The notes beneath the pieces were generated by a model, which was not told where the DNA came from, did no database searches, and saw only the letters and a program-made list of their open reading frames with translations. The translations under genes were made by a program, and so were the position numbers. Below are positions 22,363-27,704 of a stretch of 64,000 bases of DNA, piece by piece. Source of the DNA: an uncultured Candidatus Binatia bacterium (GTDB lineage: Bacteria; Desulfobacterota; Binatia; Bin18); the NCBI GenBank assembly GCA_958296235.1, contig OY282457.1:1488501-1552500 (forward strand). Direction: 5' to 3'. The first letter of the stretch is position 1, and each line of letters begins with the position of its first letter.

Positions 22363-23559
22363 TCAGGCGGCTGCCTTGGCCCTCACTCTGAGCGGCAGGC
22401 GGGTCAGGCCGACCAGGCGGTTATTATTCGTCCATTCGAGATCGCCGACAATCTCGAAGTCCGCATAGCGGGCCAGTAGTTCCTCGAACACCACCCGGAT
22501 TTCCAGCCGCGCAAGGTTGGCCCCCAAACAGAAGTGGGTGCCGAGGCCAAAGCCAATATGAAAATTCGGGTTTCGACCGATATCGAACCGGAACGGGTCC
22601 ATGAACTCGTCCTCGTCCCGGTTGGCTGACATCTCCCAGATGGTGACCTTCTGTCCTTGGCGTATAAGCTGCCCGCGCAGCTCGACATCTCGCGTCGTCG
22701 TCCGGCGCTTGTACACGGACGGCGAGGTCCAGCGCACGATTTCTTCGACCGCGCTCTTCATCAGCGCCGGGTCGGACCGCAGGCGTTGCAGTTCGTGCGG
22801 GTTTTCAATCAGCGCAACCAGGCCGCCGGCAACGGAGCTGCGCGTGGTCTCAGCCCCCGCGGGAAAGAGCAGGGCAAAGAAGGCGCGCAGTTCGCGGTTA
22901 TCGAGTTGGGGGGAGCCGTCCTCTAACTGAGCATGAACAATCACGGACAGAATGTCATCCGCGGGCTCGCGGCGTTTCTGCTCCACGATCCTGTCCGCGT
23001 ACGCGCCCAGACGTTTGATATGCTCCAGAGCCAGGGCTTCGCCCGTCCCTGCGCCGATGGCAAGGTCAACAATCTGCCCCAACTCTTCTCGATCCTCCTG
23101 CGGAATCCCGAGAATAATGCAAATAGCCTGAAGCGGCAGTTCGCGCGCCACGGTCGGTACGAAATCAAATGGCTCGCCAGGCGAGATGCCGTCAAGGATA
23201 TGGCGGGTCCGTTCCCTGAGCTGGGCTTCCAGCCGGCCGATCATGCGCGGCAGGAAACCGGTATTAACCAAGTCGCGCAGGCGGCGATGCTTGGGGTCAT
23301 CCGTCTGGTTCAGTTGATAGCCGGCCCCCTTGCCATCGAAAATCTGGGTCCCCCCCAGCTCGGAAGAAAATGTCTCGGCATCCTTAAAAACGTTCACTAC
23401 GTCGTTGTAGCAACTCACCACCCAGAACCCCTCGCCGCCCGGCGTGTGCGCGGTCGGCGCATGCCACCAGACTGGGGCCTCACGCCGCAGGTAACAAAAA
23501 AATTCGTGTGGAAAGCCGTTGGCAAACGAACGGCCATACGACAGATCAACAGACTTCAT
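22363..23559 (-). CDS. Cytochrome P450
   Basis: A 398-residue soluble bacterial P450. The I-helix reads AGAETTRSS, the K-helix ExxR is EIVR, and the heme loop is FGLGTHFCLG with the proximal Cys344. The N-terminal GGEGFWVVSCYNDVVNVFKD and DDPKHRRLRDLVN segments are typical of CYP125/CYP124-like bacterial enzymes that act on steroid side chains or other lipids; this similarity is my impression only. No ferredoxin or reductase gene is adjacent. A weak GAGAGAG site precedes the ATG. Confidence 0.93.
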   Translation of the reverse strand: MKSVDLSYGRSFANGFPHEFFCYLRREAPVWWHAPTAHTPGGEGFWVVSCYNDVVNVFKDAETFSSELGGTQIFDGKGAGYQLNQTDDPKHRRLRDLVNTGFLPRMIGRLEAQLRERTRHILDGISPGEPFDFVPTVARELPLQAICIILGIPQEDREELGQIVDLAIGAGTGEALALEHIKRLGAYADRIVEQKRREPADDILSVIVHAQLEDGSPQLDNRELRAFFALLFPAGAETTRSSVAGGLVALIENPHELQRLRSDPALMKSAVEEIVRWTSPSVYKRRTTTRDVELRGQLIRQGQKVTIWEMSANRDEDEFMDPFRFDIGRNPNFHIGFGLGTHFCLGANLARLEIRVVFEELLARYADFEIVGDLEWTNNNRLVGLTRLPLRVRAKAAA

Positions 23560-23934
23560 ACATCTCTCTCGTCAGTGGGCGTGTTTGTATATAGCTGCGG
23601 GTATCGAGCCGGCCGACTTCAAGGCGGGGCGCGTGGCCGATGGCCGTCCCCGTGAGCGCCCCGTTTACGGCGGTCTGGTTCTTCATCGACGCTCCCTCCC
23701 GTTTTTTCGCTCGTCCTTCTCCACTCGGACAGACGGACAGGCTACAGTGTTCAAGCGAGCCTCCTTGTTTCTGCACGGCTCAGACTTACGCTGGCACTGA
23801 ACTATTGATAGTAACAGAAGACCAGGAAGACAAGCGGTATATAATAAAAATGGATAGGGTCTCAGTTTGTATTTTCCCCCTCTCCCCTCTGAGGGGGAGG
23901 GGGGGGCGCTGAACCGGCAGCGAGGGAGGGAAGT
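23560..23934. other. Gene-free stretch with G/C palindrome
   Basis: No supported gene. It should hold the P450 promoter on the left and that of the secreted protein on the right. A perfect TATAAT at 23840-23845 lies about 90 bp before the next plus-strand gene, without a convincing -35 box. A palindrome (CCCCTC-T-GAGGGG, 23884-23896) inside a C/G-run resembles the dispersed repeat described at 12.6-12.9 kb. Confidence 0.5.
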
Positions 23935-24489
23935 ATGAAACTGAGACACTACCTAAAAATGAGAACCTTTCTTATATGCGCGGCTTTATCCTGCTTTGTT
24001 TTTTCAGCCTATGAGGGGTCGGCTACAGATTCCTCTCTCTCCGCTCTTTCTTCCGTGCCCTCTTTGCAAGAGCAGTTAAAGGACTACTGCCAAACGTACT
24101 TGGAGGCCTTAGCCACATTGTACGAAAAAAAATCCTCTTCCCACGCCACGGCGCGCGTGAGTGCACTAGACCGCGGCAGCCGCATGATGACTTTTATGAC
24201 AAATATTTTTCAACCCTTCGATTCCAGATTCCACTCCAGTTATATCTGTCGTTTTCAAATCGATCTCCATGAAAAAAAGCGCGCCGGCTCCATGACTCTC
24301 CTTCTCATCGAAAACAAAGCTTTTGCTGAATACACGCAGTGGAAAGACATCCAGATTATAGATATAGGCGAGGTCTCCCACCCCCAGGATGAAACGTTGT
24401 ATGTGGTCGTGAAGTACCTGGAAGTCGATGAGAAATACCTGCACTTATACGAAAACCGGAAAGAAAGCCCTTTTTATCCGTCTGGTTAA
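23935..24489 (+). CDS. Secreted protein of unknown function
   Basis: A 184-residue protein not recognised as any family. The N-terminus is a signal peptide (basic KLRHYLKMR, hydrophobic FLICAALSCFVFSAY), so it is exported, possibly periplasmic. The rest is mixed alpha/beta with charged surface segments. Two Cys (CQTY and ICRF) could form a disulfide. GAGGGAGG precedes the ATG. It has no same-strand partner. Confidence 0.7.
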   Translation: MKLRHYLKMRTFLICAALSCFVFSAYEGSATDSSLSALSSVPSLQEQLKDYCQTYLEALATLYEKKSSSHATARVSALDRGSRMMTFMTNIFQPFDSRFHSSYICRFQIDLHEKKRAGSMTLLLIENKAFAEYTQWKDIQIIDIGEVSHPQDETLYVVVKYLEVDEKYLHLYENRKESPFYPSG

Positions 24490-24492
24490 CGA

Positions 24493-24543
24493 TCTCACCC
24501 CAGGACGACATCATAGGCTTCGAGTTTGGGCGCGGCCATTTCC
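24493..24543 (+). repeat. 51-bp direct repeat, left copy
   Basis: These 51 bases match 26209-26259 at 49 positions (differences in GACGAC/GACAAC and CGAGTT/CGGGTT). The right copy is the 3' end of the intact FMO gene at 26.2-27.7 kb; this copy is the 3' end of the chimeric relic. Both have the same orientation and bracket a 1.7-kb strip with small genes and a tRNA. Confidence 0.9.
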
Positions 24544-24668
24544 AGATCGAAGATGCGCGGGTCCCGGAACACGTCTCGGTCCACCGTAAACACGCCCTGC
24601 TCGGGCCGGTCATTGGAAGTCGGAATTGTCAATATGGGTTCTGAGGAACAAACCGAGGAAGATGACAT
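24495..24668 (-). pseudogene. Chimeric relic: Rieske oxygenase head joined to FMO tail
   Basis: A 57-codon frame from ATG 24668. Its first part (PEQGVFTVDRDVFRDPRIFD) looks like the extreme N-terminus of benzoate-type Rieske oxygenase alpha subunits, which normally continue into FEGNWV. After the residues LEM it switches to AAPKLEAYDVVLG plus stop. That is the C-terminal end of the intact FMO at 26.2-27.7 kb (AAPKPEAYDVVLG). The junction lies in a shared E-M codon pair, which fits a microhomology-mediated fusion. No good ribosome site is seen. It is probably a deletion scar, though it could be translated. Confidence 0.6.
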
Positions 24669-24725
24669 CTACAAAATCCAGCAAGCGGCAAAAGGGTAAT
24701 TTGGCAGACCTGAATTGATGTATGA

Positions 24726-24953
24726 TTAGTCTGCGGGTGAGGGAAACGAATTATAGAAATCTTTTTTGAACTGTTCAAAAGCTTTCCTGCATTCGTCTTT
24801 GTTTGCATATTTTTCATTTGAATAAGCAATGACTTTCCCATCTTTTCTTATGACCCAAAAAGGTCCGTGGCCGCCTCCTAGTGGGGAGTTAAGCTCTAGT
24901 GCTCCGGTTAATGGGATATCGACAGTCAACTTGTGGTCAGATTCTTGGGGCAT
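24726..24953 (-). CDS. Small protein of unknown function
   Basis: A 75-residue protein with a good AAGGAG site 6-7 nt before its ATG, which supports it as real. The middle (GPFWVIRKDGKVIAYSNEKYAN) followed by a helix (KDECRKAFEQFKKDF) faintly resembles the DUF1508/YegP-type fold, where a beta-hairpin precedes a helix, but I would not assign it. It lies in the AT-richer strip between the 51-bp direct repeats. Confidence 0.6.
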   Translation of the reverse strand: MPQESDHKLTVDIPLTGALELNSPLGGGHGPFWVIRKDGKVIAYSNEKYANKDECRKAFEQFKKDFYNSFPSPAD

Positions 24954-25084
24954 AATGGCTCCTTTTCTGCGGTAGATGCTCCATTACTTCGGTTATGGGG
25001 CATCTATCTACCGGACACTTTCCCCTCCTGTCAACAAAATAGCTGATGAACAGAAAAAATCTAATAAAATTAGGGTCTTATGTG

Positions 25085-25158
25085 TAGCCCTAGTAGGGCT
25101 TGAACCTACATTTGCCTCTTCGTAAAAGAGGTGCTCTATCCAATTGAGTTATAGGGCT
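25085..25158 (-). tRNA. tRNA with anticodon UAC (Val by anticodon), divergent
   Basis: A 74-nt cloverleaf. The acceptor stem AGCCCTA pairs perfectly with TAGGGCT. The anticodon arm is CCTCT-TTTACGA-AGAGG, giving anticodon UAC. The T arm is GTAGG-TTCAAGC-CCTAC. The D arm is weaker, with an A-C mismatch at its first pair. CCA is not encoded. The acceptor stem is unlike usual bacterial tRNA-Val, so the amino-acid identity is uncertain and it may be a pseudo-tRNA or element-borne tRNA. It sits between the 51-bp direct repeats. Confidence 0.75.
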
Positions 25159-25478
25159 GCATTCTGAAGGGGGTTCCTGTGAAAGCAGGAGCCCCTATCT
25201 ACATATAGAAAGATTTCAGCCCTTTTATCCCCCTTAGCTCAGCTAAATTGGCGATATTTTTCCTTCCTCTTGACATTCTTCCTTGTGATTTTGTAGGGCC
25301 TGGGGTTGCGATCATTATCCGAAGGTCCGTGTGTCGGGCCTTCCGTTGAATACAAGAGCCCGATTCTGGTGAAGGGTAGCTCCCTGAGCTTGGGTGAATA
25401 GGCGGAACCATCCATACCTTCGGTGTAATGGTCGCAAAGGTCCGGCAATCCGTGCCGTGATCTGAGGAGGGCAATTGT
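25159..25478. other. Gene-free stretch with stem-loop
   Basis: No supported gene. A stem-loop at 25170-25195 (GGGGTTCCTG / CAGGAGCCCC, one G-T pair, 6-nt loop) lies just upstream of the minus-strand tRNA. The remainder is low-complexity-free DNA leading to an AGGAGG ribosome site for the next small gene. Confidence 0.5.
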
Positions 25479-25739
25479 ATGGCTATGGAAAAGAATAAGT
25501 GGGTAGCAAGTGGTCTTCTTTTGGGAGGTTGGTTTGTTTGGGCACTTTTGGCGGAGAGTGTTGTATCTGAAGTGGAGCCCTTTGGTCTTCTCTTTATGAT
25601 AATTGTGGGGGCTCAGGGAAATCAGTGGCGTGAGAAGAATTTGCTCACTCGTGGGTATGAATGCGAGGAGACAGTTCAGGCGCAAACTCCCGAAGCGGCG
25701 TTGGCCTTGTGGGTAAAGGAAGCGAGCGGAGAAAAATAG
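25479..25739 (+). CDS. Small protein with two hydrophobic segments
   Basis: An 86-residue protein of unknown family with a clear AGGAGG site before the ATG. Hydrophobic segments at about residues 9-24 (ASGLLLGGWFVWALLA) and 33-45 (EPFGLLFMIIVGA) suggest a short membrane hairpin, followed by a soluble tail (NQWREKNLLTRGYECEETVQ). It lies in the strip between the direct repeats. No function can be given. Confidence 0.6.
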   Translation: MAMEKNKWVASGLLLGGWFVWALLAESVVSEVEPFGLLFMIIVGAQGNQWREKNLLTRGYECEETVQAQTPEAALALWVKEASGEK

Positions 25740-26003
25740 GGAGTTTGCTTATAGATTATATATAAGTATGGGGGGGAGGTTCCTTACTGCCTACATATAT
25801 AATGGATATGGAGAGTATGAGAACATGCTTATCGTCGTGTGGCGCGTGGGTAAATAGGGATATAATTCCCGAAATTAAGGCTTTGTCTGGAGAGGAGGCT
25901 TTGGTCAGCGTACCTGAGGTCTAGCGTCAGTAGAGGTAGAGCTTACACAGGATGGATTTCTTTTCTGGTGGAACAATGCTTAACCGCCCTAAAGGAGGTG
26001 ATT
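25740..26003. other. AT-rich stretch without a recognised gene
   Basis: This stretch is clearly more AT-rich than the surrounding catabolic genes (runs such as TATATATAAG and TATATAATGG) and has a G-run at about 25770. I see no gene with both a start and a ribosome site until 26004. Confidence 0.5.
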
Positions 26004-26114
26004 ATGGACCTAATTTCTGAACTTGATTTCTGCGACGATATACAGATTCTAATTCGCCTCTCGACGACGCTGGCCAAAGCCTCCTATCACCAAGTACCCC
26101 GACACGGATTTTGA
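26004..26114 (+). CDS. Possible micro-protein with a near-perfect Shine-Dalgarno
   Basis: A 36-codon frame (MDLISELDFCDDIQIL...) starts 3-4 nt after AAAGGAGGTGA, almost the full complement of the 16S rRNA 3' end. The site is among the strongest in the window. The peptide is acidic at first, then basic, and matches nothing I know. From 26053 an overlapping frame (+1) stays open to 26199 and reads like protein (KYPDTDFDRQTGALLGPEHP), so this may instead be a frameshifted relic of a longer gene. Confidence 0.35.
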   Translation: MDLISELDFCDDIQILIRLSTTLAKASYHQVPRHGF

Positions 26115-26208
26115 TCGACAGACAGGAGCGTTGCTCGGACCAGAGCACCCCAAGGCTGCCGTCAGAAAAACGGGCGGCTCCGGTATTGAGTCGCTATAAC
26201 GCTCTCAC

Positions 26209-26259
26209 TCTCACCCCAGGACAACATCATAGGCTTCGGGTTTGGGCGCGGCCATTTCC
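26209..26259 (+). repeat. 51-bp direct repeat, right copy
   Basis: This is the right partner of 24493-24543 (49 of 51 identical). It covers the last 16 codons and stop of the minus-strand FMO gene. Confidence 0.9.
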
Positions 26260-27704
26260 GCGTCGAAATGGGCTTGGGACCAGGGCCAGCTTGCCGGCAC
26301 GCCATGCTTGTCCAGATACCAGCTATTACAGCCCGTCGCCCAGATCGATTTCTTGGCGGCCTGCGCACGGGATCGCTCATAGTCGTCCGTAGCTGAGCGA
26401 CTGGCGCTGATTTCCCGGCACTCGCCCGTTCGTATTTTCTCCATGAGGTGCAGGATATAGCCCAGTTGCAGTTCGGCAATGCGAATCAAGGAAAAGTTGC
26501 CGACCGGACCGTTGGGGCCGTTCAGCATAAAAAAGTTCGGAAACTCAGGAATGGAAATCGAGAGATAGGCAACCGGATGGTCCGCCCATACGTCGTCAAG
26601 ATCAACACCGCCCCGGCCGCGCACCAGGGTCGGGCGGATAAAACGGTCGGCCCGAAAGCCGGTCGCCAATACAAGAACATCCAGCTCGTGCAGTTCTCCG
26701 TCCTGGGTCCGAACACCCTTGGGTTCGACGGCTTCAATGCCGGAGACCACGAGTTCGGCGTTCGGATGCTGAATGGACTCATAGAAATTGGGCGACAGAA
26801 TGAGACGCTTACACGCCGCCCGATAATTTGGCCGGAGTTTCTCACGTAATGCCGGGTCTTTCACCGTTTCTTCAAGGTTGGTCAGGCAGACGGCTTCAAT
26901 CTCCTTCATCTCGGGGGAGTCAGAATCAATGACCGCCTTACTGAAATTTTCAAAAAACTCCTTCTGCTCTTCGCGCAGCGCGTAGATTTTCTGGAGGTCG
27001 TTGGCAAACGCGGCGCGCTCGACAGCCGCGTAGGCGTCGTTCTCCATTTTGAAGACCCACTGCGCGGTGCGCTGGAATAATGTGTAGCGGGCCACCCGCT
27101 CGACCAGGGCGGTGGTAATCTGGATCGCGGTCGAGCCGGTGCCGATCACGCCAACCCGCGCGCCGTCGAGCGGGACTCTGTGGTCCCACTCGGCGCTGTG
27201 GAAATGCGCGCCCTCAAAGGTGTCAAGACCGGGGATGGCCGCCCGGTTGGGATGGTGCAGCACCCCGGTAGCGGCAATGATGATATCCGCCTGGTCTTCA
27301 CGCCCTTTACTGGTCCGAATCTGCCAGCGGCCGTCAATGAATTCGCAGGCCGTAATCTCTTCCTCAAAGCGGACACGGTCTACAACTGCATACTTCTGAG
27401 CAACATTCTCGAAATAGGTCCGAATCTCAGGGCCCGGAGCAAACACCTGACTCCAGTCCGGGTTAGGCTCAAAGGAATAGGTATACGAATGCGCCGGCAC
27501 GTCGCAGGCCAGGCCCGGATAGGTGTTCGCCCGCCAGGTACCGCCCAGGGCGTCTGACTTCTCATAGATGACACAGTTGTCATAGCCGGCCTCACGAAAC
27601 TTAATGGCGGACAGGATGCCGGCCATACCCGCGCCAATGATGACGATGCGTGGGTATGGCGAGCCGTGTTTGAGCTCTTGGGGGTTCAGATTGGGTTCGG
27701 CCAT
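26211..27704 (-). CDS. Flavin monooxygenase, Baeyer-Villiger type (copy 3)
   Basis: A 497-residue class B monooxygenase without the long N-terminal extension of copies 1 and 2. It has the FAD motif GAGMAG (residues 24-29), GGTWRANTYPGLACDVP, the BVMO-type fingerprint FEGAHFHSAEW, and the NADPH motif GTGSTA. The gene begins 14 bp after the acyl-CoA dehydrogenase gene, so the two form an operon. The reaction is probably ketone oxidation or hydroxylation. The 3' end is duplicated at 24.5 kb. Confidence 0.92.
   Translation of the reverse strand: MAEPNLNPQELKHGSPYPRIVIIGAGMAGILSAIKFREAGYDNCVIYEKSDALGGTWRANTYPGLACDVPAHSYTYSFEPNPDWSQVFAPGPEIRTYFENVAQKYAVVDRVRFEEEITACEFIDGRWQIRTSKGREDQADIIIAATGVLHHPNRAAIPGLDTFEGAHFHSAEWDHRVPLDGARVGVIGTGSTAIQITTALVERVARYTLFQRTAQWVFKMENDAYAAVERAAFANDLQKIYALREEQKEFFENFSKAVIDSDSPEMKEIEAVCLTNLEETVKDPALREKLRPNYRAACKRLILSPNFYESIQHPNAELVVSGIEAVEPKGVRTQDGELHELDVLVLATGFRADRFIRPTLVRGRGGVDLDDVWADHPVAYLSISIPEFPNFFMLNGPNGPVGNFSLIRIAELQLGYILHLMEKIRTGECREISASRSATDDYERSRAQAAKKSIWATGCNSWYLDKHGVPASWPWSQAHFDAEMAAPKPEAYDVVLG

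Follow-up and report, generated by a model that had tools for sequence, protein, structure and literature searches.

A probable rearrangement scar in a Candidatus Binatia genome, holding part of a decayed IS1595-family transposon with a candidate leader RNA for exported proteins

In the window analysed here, a stretch of 64,000 nucleotides from an uncultured Candidatus Binatia bacterium, two nearly identical sequences bracket a short strip of unusual base composition, which raises the question of what these repeats are and how the strip came to lie between them. The direct repeat is 59 nt long (24493-24551 and 26209-26267; 92% identity, spacing 1716), and a search of the whole genome placed it at two sites only, both in the window. 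Each copy corresponds to the 3' end of the FMO gene at 26211-27704 on the minus strand. The GC content of the strip is 0.467 vs 0.575 for the window, a value equally low in 3 of 625 sliding windows of 1594 bp. A tRNA-Val(UAC) gene and two small ORFs (75 and 86 aa) lie inside it, and neither an integrase nor a transposase was found among its ORFs and their Pfam matches. An earlier sequence-only reading had described the repeats, the AT-richer strip, its gene content and its lack of an integrase correctly. It proposed the remnant of an integrative element targeted to the FMO 3' end or, alternatively, tandem duplication followed by replacement, and it overlooked both a Rieske gene fragment fused to the left repeat and a structured RNA at 25306-25447.

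Origin of the direct repeats

The features of the locus, other than those of the RNA and its associated gene, are as follows.

22363-23559, minus strand: cytochrome P450 gene (Pfam p450), adjoining the Rieske genes in relatives (synteny)
23855-23951: 97-bp short element with inverted ends (TAGTGTCTCAGTTT type; inverted repeat), where the lost Rieske genes stood
23935-24489, plus strand: 184-aa ORF of unknown family (ORF list, Pfam)
24493-24551, minus strand: FMO 3' tail, left copy, with the Rieske fragment fused to it at the right end (from 24537)
24537-24611, minus strand: fragment of a Rieske oxygenase alpha gene, approximately codons 21-46 of 471 (88-93% identity to the Rieske genes of six same-genus genomes)
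24726-24953, minus strand: 75-aa ORF of unknown family (ORF list, Pfam)
25084-25158, minus strand: divergent tRNA-Val(UAC)-like gene, related to one at the left end of L065, an intact transposon
25848-25870, minus strand: right terminal inverted repeat of a decayed IS1595-family transposon
26209-26267, minus strand: right repeat copy, the tail of the intact FMO gene (repeat and whole-genome search)
26211-27704, minus strand: FMO-like flavin monooxygenase gene (Pfam FMO-like / Pyr_redox_3)

Comparison with relatives proved informative. All six same-genus genomes compared have the order P450 - Rieske - FMO, and in five of them a single FMO tail lies approximately 233-242 bp from the Rieske gene, which is the single-repeat, strip-less locus that the earlier reading had suggested looking for. 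The sixth, G002, carries a different insertion of approximately 3.9 kb between the FMO tail and the Rieske gene, and the gap between these two genes looks like a rearrangement hot spot. Inside that insertion (L036:1660-5300) are ORFs of 751 aa (helicase-like) and 149 aa, together with a piece of the acyl-CoA dehydrogenase gene next door. In G005 (L041) the Rieske pair consists of a 471-aa alpha subunit and a 165-aa ORF, taken here for the beta subunit, and the same pair is present in G002 (L036).

In the window the Rieske genes have been lost except for 24537-24611, and this remnant is joined to the second FMO tail through a few bases common to both at the join. The lost genes are replaced by the element at 23855-23951 and the 184-aa ORF. 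The left repeat passes into Rieske coding sequence and is therefore a fusion scar. By deletion or template switching, a rearrangement would have removed the Rieske alpha and beta genes from between the P450 and FMO genes and left a chimeric scar of FMO tail and Rieske fragment, and with it the direct repeats; the order of events is our inference. Judged by such comparison of sequences, the direct repeats are a rearrangement scar (deletion or template switching) and not attachment sites, and the strip is a gene-deletion scar holding a decayed transposon rather than an element integrated at a gene end.

The 59-bp direct repeats at a gene end and the relatives without the strip might also speak for an integrative element that used the FMO 3' end as its attachment site, with attL and attR as its flanks, but we consider this very improbable. 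The strip has no integrase, nor were flanking att repeats found at the locus; the left repeat continues into Rieske coding sequence; the Rieske genes are gone, and site-specific insertion would not delete genes; and a transposon end lies approximately 340 bp inside the right repeat. What survives of the earlier proposal is the remnant of a mobile element, in the form of an IS1595-family right end, but the repeats are not att sites and the FMO gene was not the target. Tandem duplication followed by replacement comes closer to the scar, although there was no simple tandem duplication of two FMO genes: two full-length FMO paralogues are ruled out, as only one such gene ends in the repeat. A relocated housekeeping segment is likewise ruled out, the strip having short chance matches only elsewhere in the genome. 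A second tRNA-Val(UAC) gene is found at 861604-861675, so that the one in the strip is an extra, divergent copy.

Some further features of the region may be recorded. The 184-aa ORF at the place of the lost Rieske genes has a hydrophobic N-terminus and no Pfam family. Part of the element at 23855-23951 has copies of 80-81% identity at three further places in the genome, and its ends resemble the GGTAGTG...CAGTTTGA ends of elements with terminal inverted repeats (TIRs) and target-site duplications (TSDs) at loci L197 and L202. A 22-nt inverted repeat (25890-25911 / 26067-26088; 91% complementary, 155 nt apart) lies beyond the transposon end.

A transposon remnant and its intact relatives

The right TIR at 25848-25870, approximately 340 bp inside the right repeat, has a chance expectation of 0.00, and sequences related to the right part of the strip are found in G002 and G006. 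The relative in G002, L065, is complete: it spans 3118 bp and shows terminal repeats and an exact 8-bp duplication. Besides an IS1595-type transposase (DDE_Tnp_IS1595, E 8e-38) it encodes a DUF2628 protein and proteins related to the 86-aa one of the strip, and it also has a tRNA-like gene. The order of tRNA, small protein and right end is common to L065 and the window, and a short block beside the tRNA lies on opposite sides of it in the two. The tRNA-like gene of L065 (4168-4242), which lies immediately within the left terminus, falls below the Rfam cut-off.

Elements of the IS1595 family generate an 8-bp target-site duplication, and L065 and L043 both combine DDE_Tnp_IS1595 with TIRs and exact 8-bp TSDs. 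Both ends are present in 11 related loci; the window element has its right TIR alone, and the 8 bases beyond it occur once in 24000-26500, the left end being lost. No transposase of the L065 type was matched in the whole genome at E<=1e-30. Because only the right TIR remains and the genome gave no such transposase match at that threshold, the window element is considered a decayed fragment. A transposase with DDE_Tnp_IS1595 was not found in the strip, and we would class the window copy as an IS1595-family remnant, not a complete member, an assignment resting on one end and related cargo. The related loci share with IS1595 (ISXO2-like) transposons the DDE_Tnp_IS1595 and Zn_ribbon_IS1595 domains, the TIRs and the 8-bp duplications. 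They differ in their passenger, which consists of a promoter, a structured leader RNA, an exported-protein gene and sometimes a tRNA-like gene, and the window copy differs further in having lost its transposase and left end.

The association of this RNA with the transposons extends well beyond the genus. Relatives of the L065 transposase are present in 24 of the 134 RNA loci, and in 10 of these 24 both TIRs and exact 8-bp duplications enclose RNA and transposase together. At L179 (Nitrospira) a 945-bp element with perfect ends has the RNA inside and no transposase. The RNA was found inside TIR+TSD elements of the GGGAATTA type at 11 loci in four phyla (Binatota, Alpha- and Gammaproteobacteria, including an OMG-group genome, Gemmatimonadetes and Nitrospira). 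Run on loci that lack this RNA, the search gave 0 of 1500, and on shuffles 0 of 480; a looser control with random positions in the same loci gave 15 of at most 300, and these may fall inside the same elements. Not counted in the 11 are L197 and L202, with perfect TIR+TSD of the other, GGTAGTG type, and L177, with a poor pair.

It could be asked whether the RNA, or its DNA form, belongs to the transposition machinery, as a guide RNA or recombination site, rather than being a gene leader. The 11 loci with the RNA inside IS1595-type elements lend themselves to this, as does the finding in the six same-genus relatives that 9 of 22 transposase matches lie within approximately 2.5 kb of an RNA copy (judged by eye), where well under one was expected. 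However, the flank fetched lacks such a transposase at 110 of the 134 RNA loci, this genome holds eight RNA copies and no such transposase (E<=1e-30), and promoter and ORF keep a fixed orientation and spacing to the RNA, so that we regard a role in transposition as quite unlikely. An integron attC-like site is ruled out, because the promoter and ORF stand at fixed places, on one strand, and the pseudoknot is kept.

The leader RNA and its cargo

The expression module, all of it on the plus strand, comprises the following features.

25270-25299, plus strand: promoter-like sequence with TTGACA at 25270-25275 and, at 25294-25299, a weak TAGGGC; TTGAC lies at the same place relative to the RNA in many copies
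25306-25447, plus strand: structured leader RNA (model R1, 110.6 bits; fold z -2.8; covariation; stem V test)
25306-25326/25416-25437, plus strand: stem V
25333-25340/25439-25446, plus strand: pseudoknot K
25342-25346/25402-25406, plus strand: P2
25358-25361/25392-25395, plus strand: P3
25368-25376/25382-25390, plus strand: P4
25443-25457, plus strand: alternative hairpin H (CGGCA/TGCCG), which would compete with pseudoknot strand K3' (sequence; family-wide test, moderate)
25464-25470, plus strand: Shine-Dalgarno (SD) sequence
25479-25739, plus strand: gene for an 86-aa membrane protein, distantly related to the DUF2628 protein of L065

The segment 25290-25475 folds better than its shuffles (z -2.8). 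Alignment of nine related places gave 38 invariant columns; L071 was omitted from the first alignment since approximately 37 bases only were matched. The covariance model R1 detected eight copies in this genome at E<=0.001. In 70 copies aligned to R1, and thus fitted to the structure, 95.0% of cells are paired and 17 of 25 pairs have changed on both sides, with covariation of 0.385; shuffling gave 0.220, with none of 500 shuffles as high, and sliding gave no more than 0.091. In the unfitted alignment of the nine places (A2), 88.9% of cells pair and covariation is 0.351 vs 0.245; pairs with double changes in A2 were not beyond the shuffles (102 of 500 as high).

In architecture, an outer stem V of variable sequence encloses the strand K5' (GUCGGGYC), followed by P2, an internal loop (GAAUA.AA.A), P3, the hairpin P4 with GUAGCU or similar, and GGYGAAUASGC; the strand K3' (GGCCCGGCA) follows V and pairs with K5' to form the pseudoknot K. 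The most conserved bases are those of the internal loops and pseudoknot strands. In 100 of the 128 copies that could be used, the two arms of stem V pair better with each other than with any of 30 swapped partners, 13 of 141 having been dropped for landmarks that were not parsed or a short flank, and by this measure the predicted stem is real. Together the aligned copies demonstrate structural selection on the predicted leader RNA.

A pattern scan that took a single genome from each of 84,980 species found at least 119 stretches, of which 80 loci were listed; 68 of these were given to R1, leaving out 12 Binatota loci from genomes already covered, and 66 of the 68 match at E<=0.01. The sample analysed comprises 141 unique copies at 134 loci. 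Among the matches listed are loci of Alpha- and Gammaproteobacteria, Binatota, Acidobacteria/Bryobacterales/Terriglobia, Chloroflexi, Gemmatimonadetes, Nitrospira, Latescibacteria, Rhodothermaceae and Limisphaerales, that is at least nine phyla as named in the database records. A search of relatives found copies in 13 of 118 genomes (all seven of the genus, one of another genus in the same family and five of one genus in another family), and among 395 genomes drawn evenly from the phylum this genome alone has a copy. All 16 genomes reached via the listed loci have copies, from 1 to 43 each, the highest number being that of the Limisphaerales genome G509 (L317-L355). The RNA pattern had no match in viral contigs, and a distant blastn search had none in plasmids and phages; these empty searches speak against a phage or plasmid origin. 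Most isolate codes of the RNA-bearing records presumably derive from sponge or coral studies. PMC8163846 names sponge hosts whose initials fit the codes RHO, COS, CAR and IRC, the codes themselves being absent from its main text.

The placement of promoter and start codon around the RNA is constrained. TTGAC occurs within 120 nt upstream in 74 of 140 full-flank copies vs 603 of 5000 control windows, with 63 of 80 occurrences in a single 10-nt bin and a -10-like pattern approximately 17 nt later. Downstream, an SD-led ORF begins at 5-200 nt in 83 of the 134 copies with at least 200 nt of flank (control, 526 of 3000); in the remaining 51 no SD-led start was called by the ORF caller. The ORF start lies at 20-50 nt in 58 of the 83 vs 72 of 526 in the control, and a hydrophobic N-terminus is present in 68 of 83 vs 80 of 526. 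The trend also holds separately, with a start at 20-60 nt in 32 of 33 for the relatives' set and 24 of 29 for the named-genome set. By the hydrophobic N-terminus measure all eight copies in this genome precede a membrane or signal-bearing protein. In G509, 40 of 43 copies were examined; an ORF follows 33 of them, and its N-terminus is hydrophobic in 24 of the 33.

The cargo itself is diverse. Proteins with a start at 20-110 nt numbered 73, and Pfam was applied to 57 of them, the rest being cut, short or near-duplicate. Matrixin peptidase (4), staphylococcal-type nuclease (3), ankyrin repeats (2), CsgG (2) and LDL-receptor class B (2) were among a total of 29 families, few of them shared; what is common is export, not pathway, and this is unusual for a metabolite riboswitch. 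In G509 the RNA and a related N-terminal segment are followed by mature proteins quite unlike one another, which looks like a joint shuffling of RNA and export signal. An N-terminal motif like 'SGIGVISGWKC' recurs behind the RNA at L108, L109, L115, L120, L070, L137, L145 and L147.

Possible function and wider meaning

We read the RNA as a mobile, riboswitch-like candidate expression leader for exported proteins. The reading that we favour for the locus as a whole, and consider likely, is that of a scar with a decayed IS1595 transposon bearing a mobile module of promoter, leader RNA and exported-protein gene, the RNA probably acting in cis. At the level of sequence comparison, the RNA family and its covariation, stem V, the placement of promoter and start codon, the exported cargo and the transposon ends form the established part of this account. 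Within the scar would lie part of a decayed IS1595-family transposon, with an expression module as its cargo: a sigma70-type promoter, a pseudoknotted leader RNA that begins near the point where transcription starts, and a membrane- or exported-protein gene. The same module occurs inside intact IS1595 elements and also alone, in bacteria of at least nine phyla. Most likely the RNA acts in cis on its mRNA. Its aptamer-like core (P2-P4 with the conserved internal-loop bases) may favour the pseudoknot K, and otherwise K3' could pair into hairpin H near the ribosome-binding site, altering translation of the exported protein.

Hairpin H, with a helix of at least 6 bp, is present in 85 of 128 copies vs 213 of 640 shuffles, and 29 of 128 copies beat all 20 shuffles; its own partners were no better than swapped ones, with 3 of 128 copies beating all swaps. 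As H is commoner than chance, yet its own partners are no better than swapped, the K/H switch is put forward as a suggestion with moderate support. A search for an anti-SD in the joining segment gave a weak signal (5 of 70 copies beat all shuffles).

An alternative that deserves attention is that the RNA does not regulate at all, being a passive 5' structure that stabilises the mRNA or a general translation leader that travels as a good expression cassette. Stem V starts near the inferred transcription start and the cargo genes have export but no pathway in common, which would suit such a role; however, the conservation peak at the internal loops and pseudoknot strands exceeds what a passive stem would need, and we regard this alternative as possible but rather less probable than regulation. 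The RNA could also be a distant variant of a known riboswitch class missed by the Rfam models. A pseudoknot close to the ribosome-binding site is a feature of several riboswitch classes, which would fit, but the loci searched gave no Rfam match at the place of the RNA, and we think such a variant unlikely. Searched against Rfam 15, the RNA of the window and those of 28 further loci matched nothing at E<=1, and the same was true at E<=2 for eight additional loci; 6S RNA or another known RNA is likewise unsupported by Rfam.

The favoured reading, of a candidate cis-acting leader, may be set beside known systems. As is looked for in a riboswitch, the RNA is a conserved, aptamer-like 5' leader with covariation. 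With orphan riboswitch candidates and other cis-regulatory leaders it shares the pseudoknot, a promoter of its own, and an SD sequence and start codon just downstream; unlike the orphan candidates it has no Rfam family, its cargo shares export rather than a pathway and its module is mobile across phyla. The c-di-GMP riboswitches often precede genes for extracellular proteins, and both they and this RNA are multi-copy leaders before exported-protein genes, but the two appear to differ in conserved sequence and fold, and the RNA here has no Rfam match. No description of it was found in the open-licence literature, as judged from titles and the openings of abstracts. Leader RNAs and passengers of insertion sequences are known as kinds; this RNA family, its spread and the combination appear to be new.

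A bolder possibility is that of a new riboswitch class that travels as cargo of IS1595-family transposons among the symbiont phyla of a shared animal host, where it would switch on exported, partly eukaryote-like proteins in response to a host or holobiont signal, giving unrelated symbionts one RNA-based host-sensing circuit in common. We hold this to be speculative and rather doubtful. PMC8163846 describes sponge symbionts of unrelated phyla as exchanging host-interaction genes, and eukaryote-like repeat proteins as transferred laterally, potentially by mobile elements.

For the locus itself, the scar and the decayed transposon account for the odd strip with no need of an integrative element. 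As up to 43 copies of the RNA are present per genome, one probing experiment would bear on a large regulon. More generally, the finding offers a vehicle, in IS1595-type elements, and a shared control device, in one structured RNA, for exported proteins.
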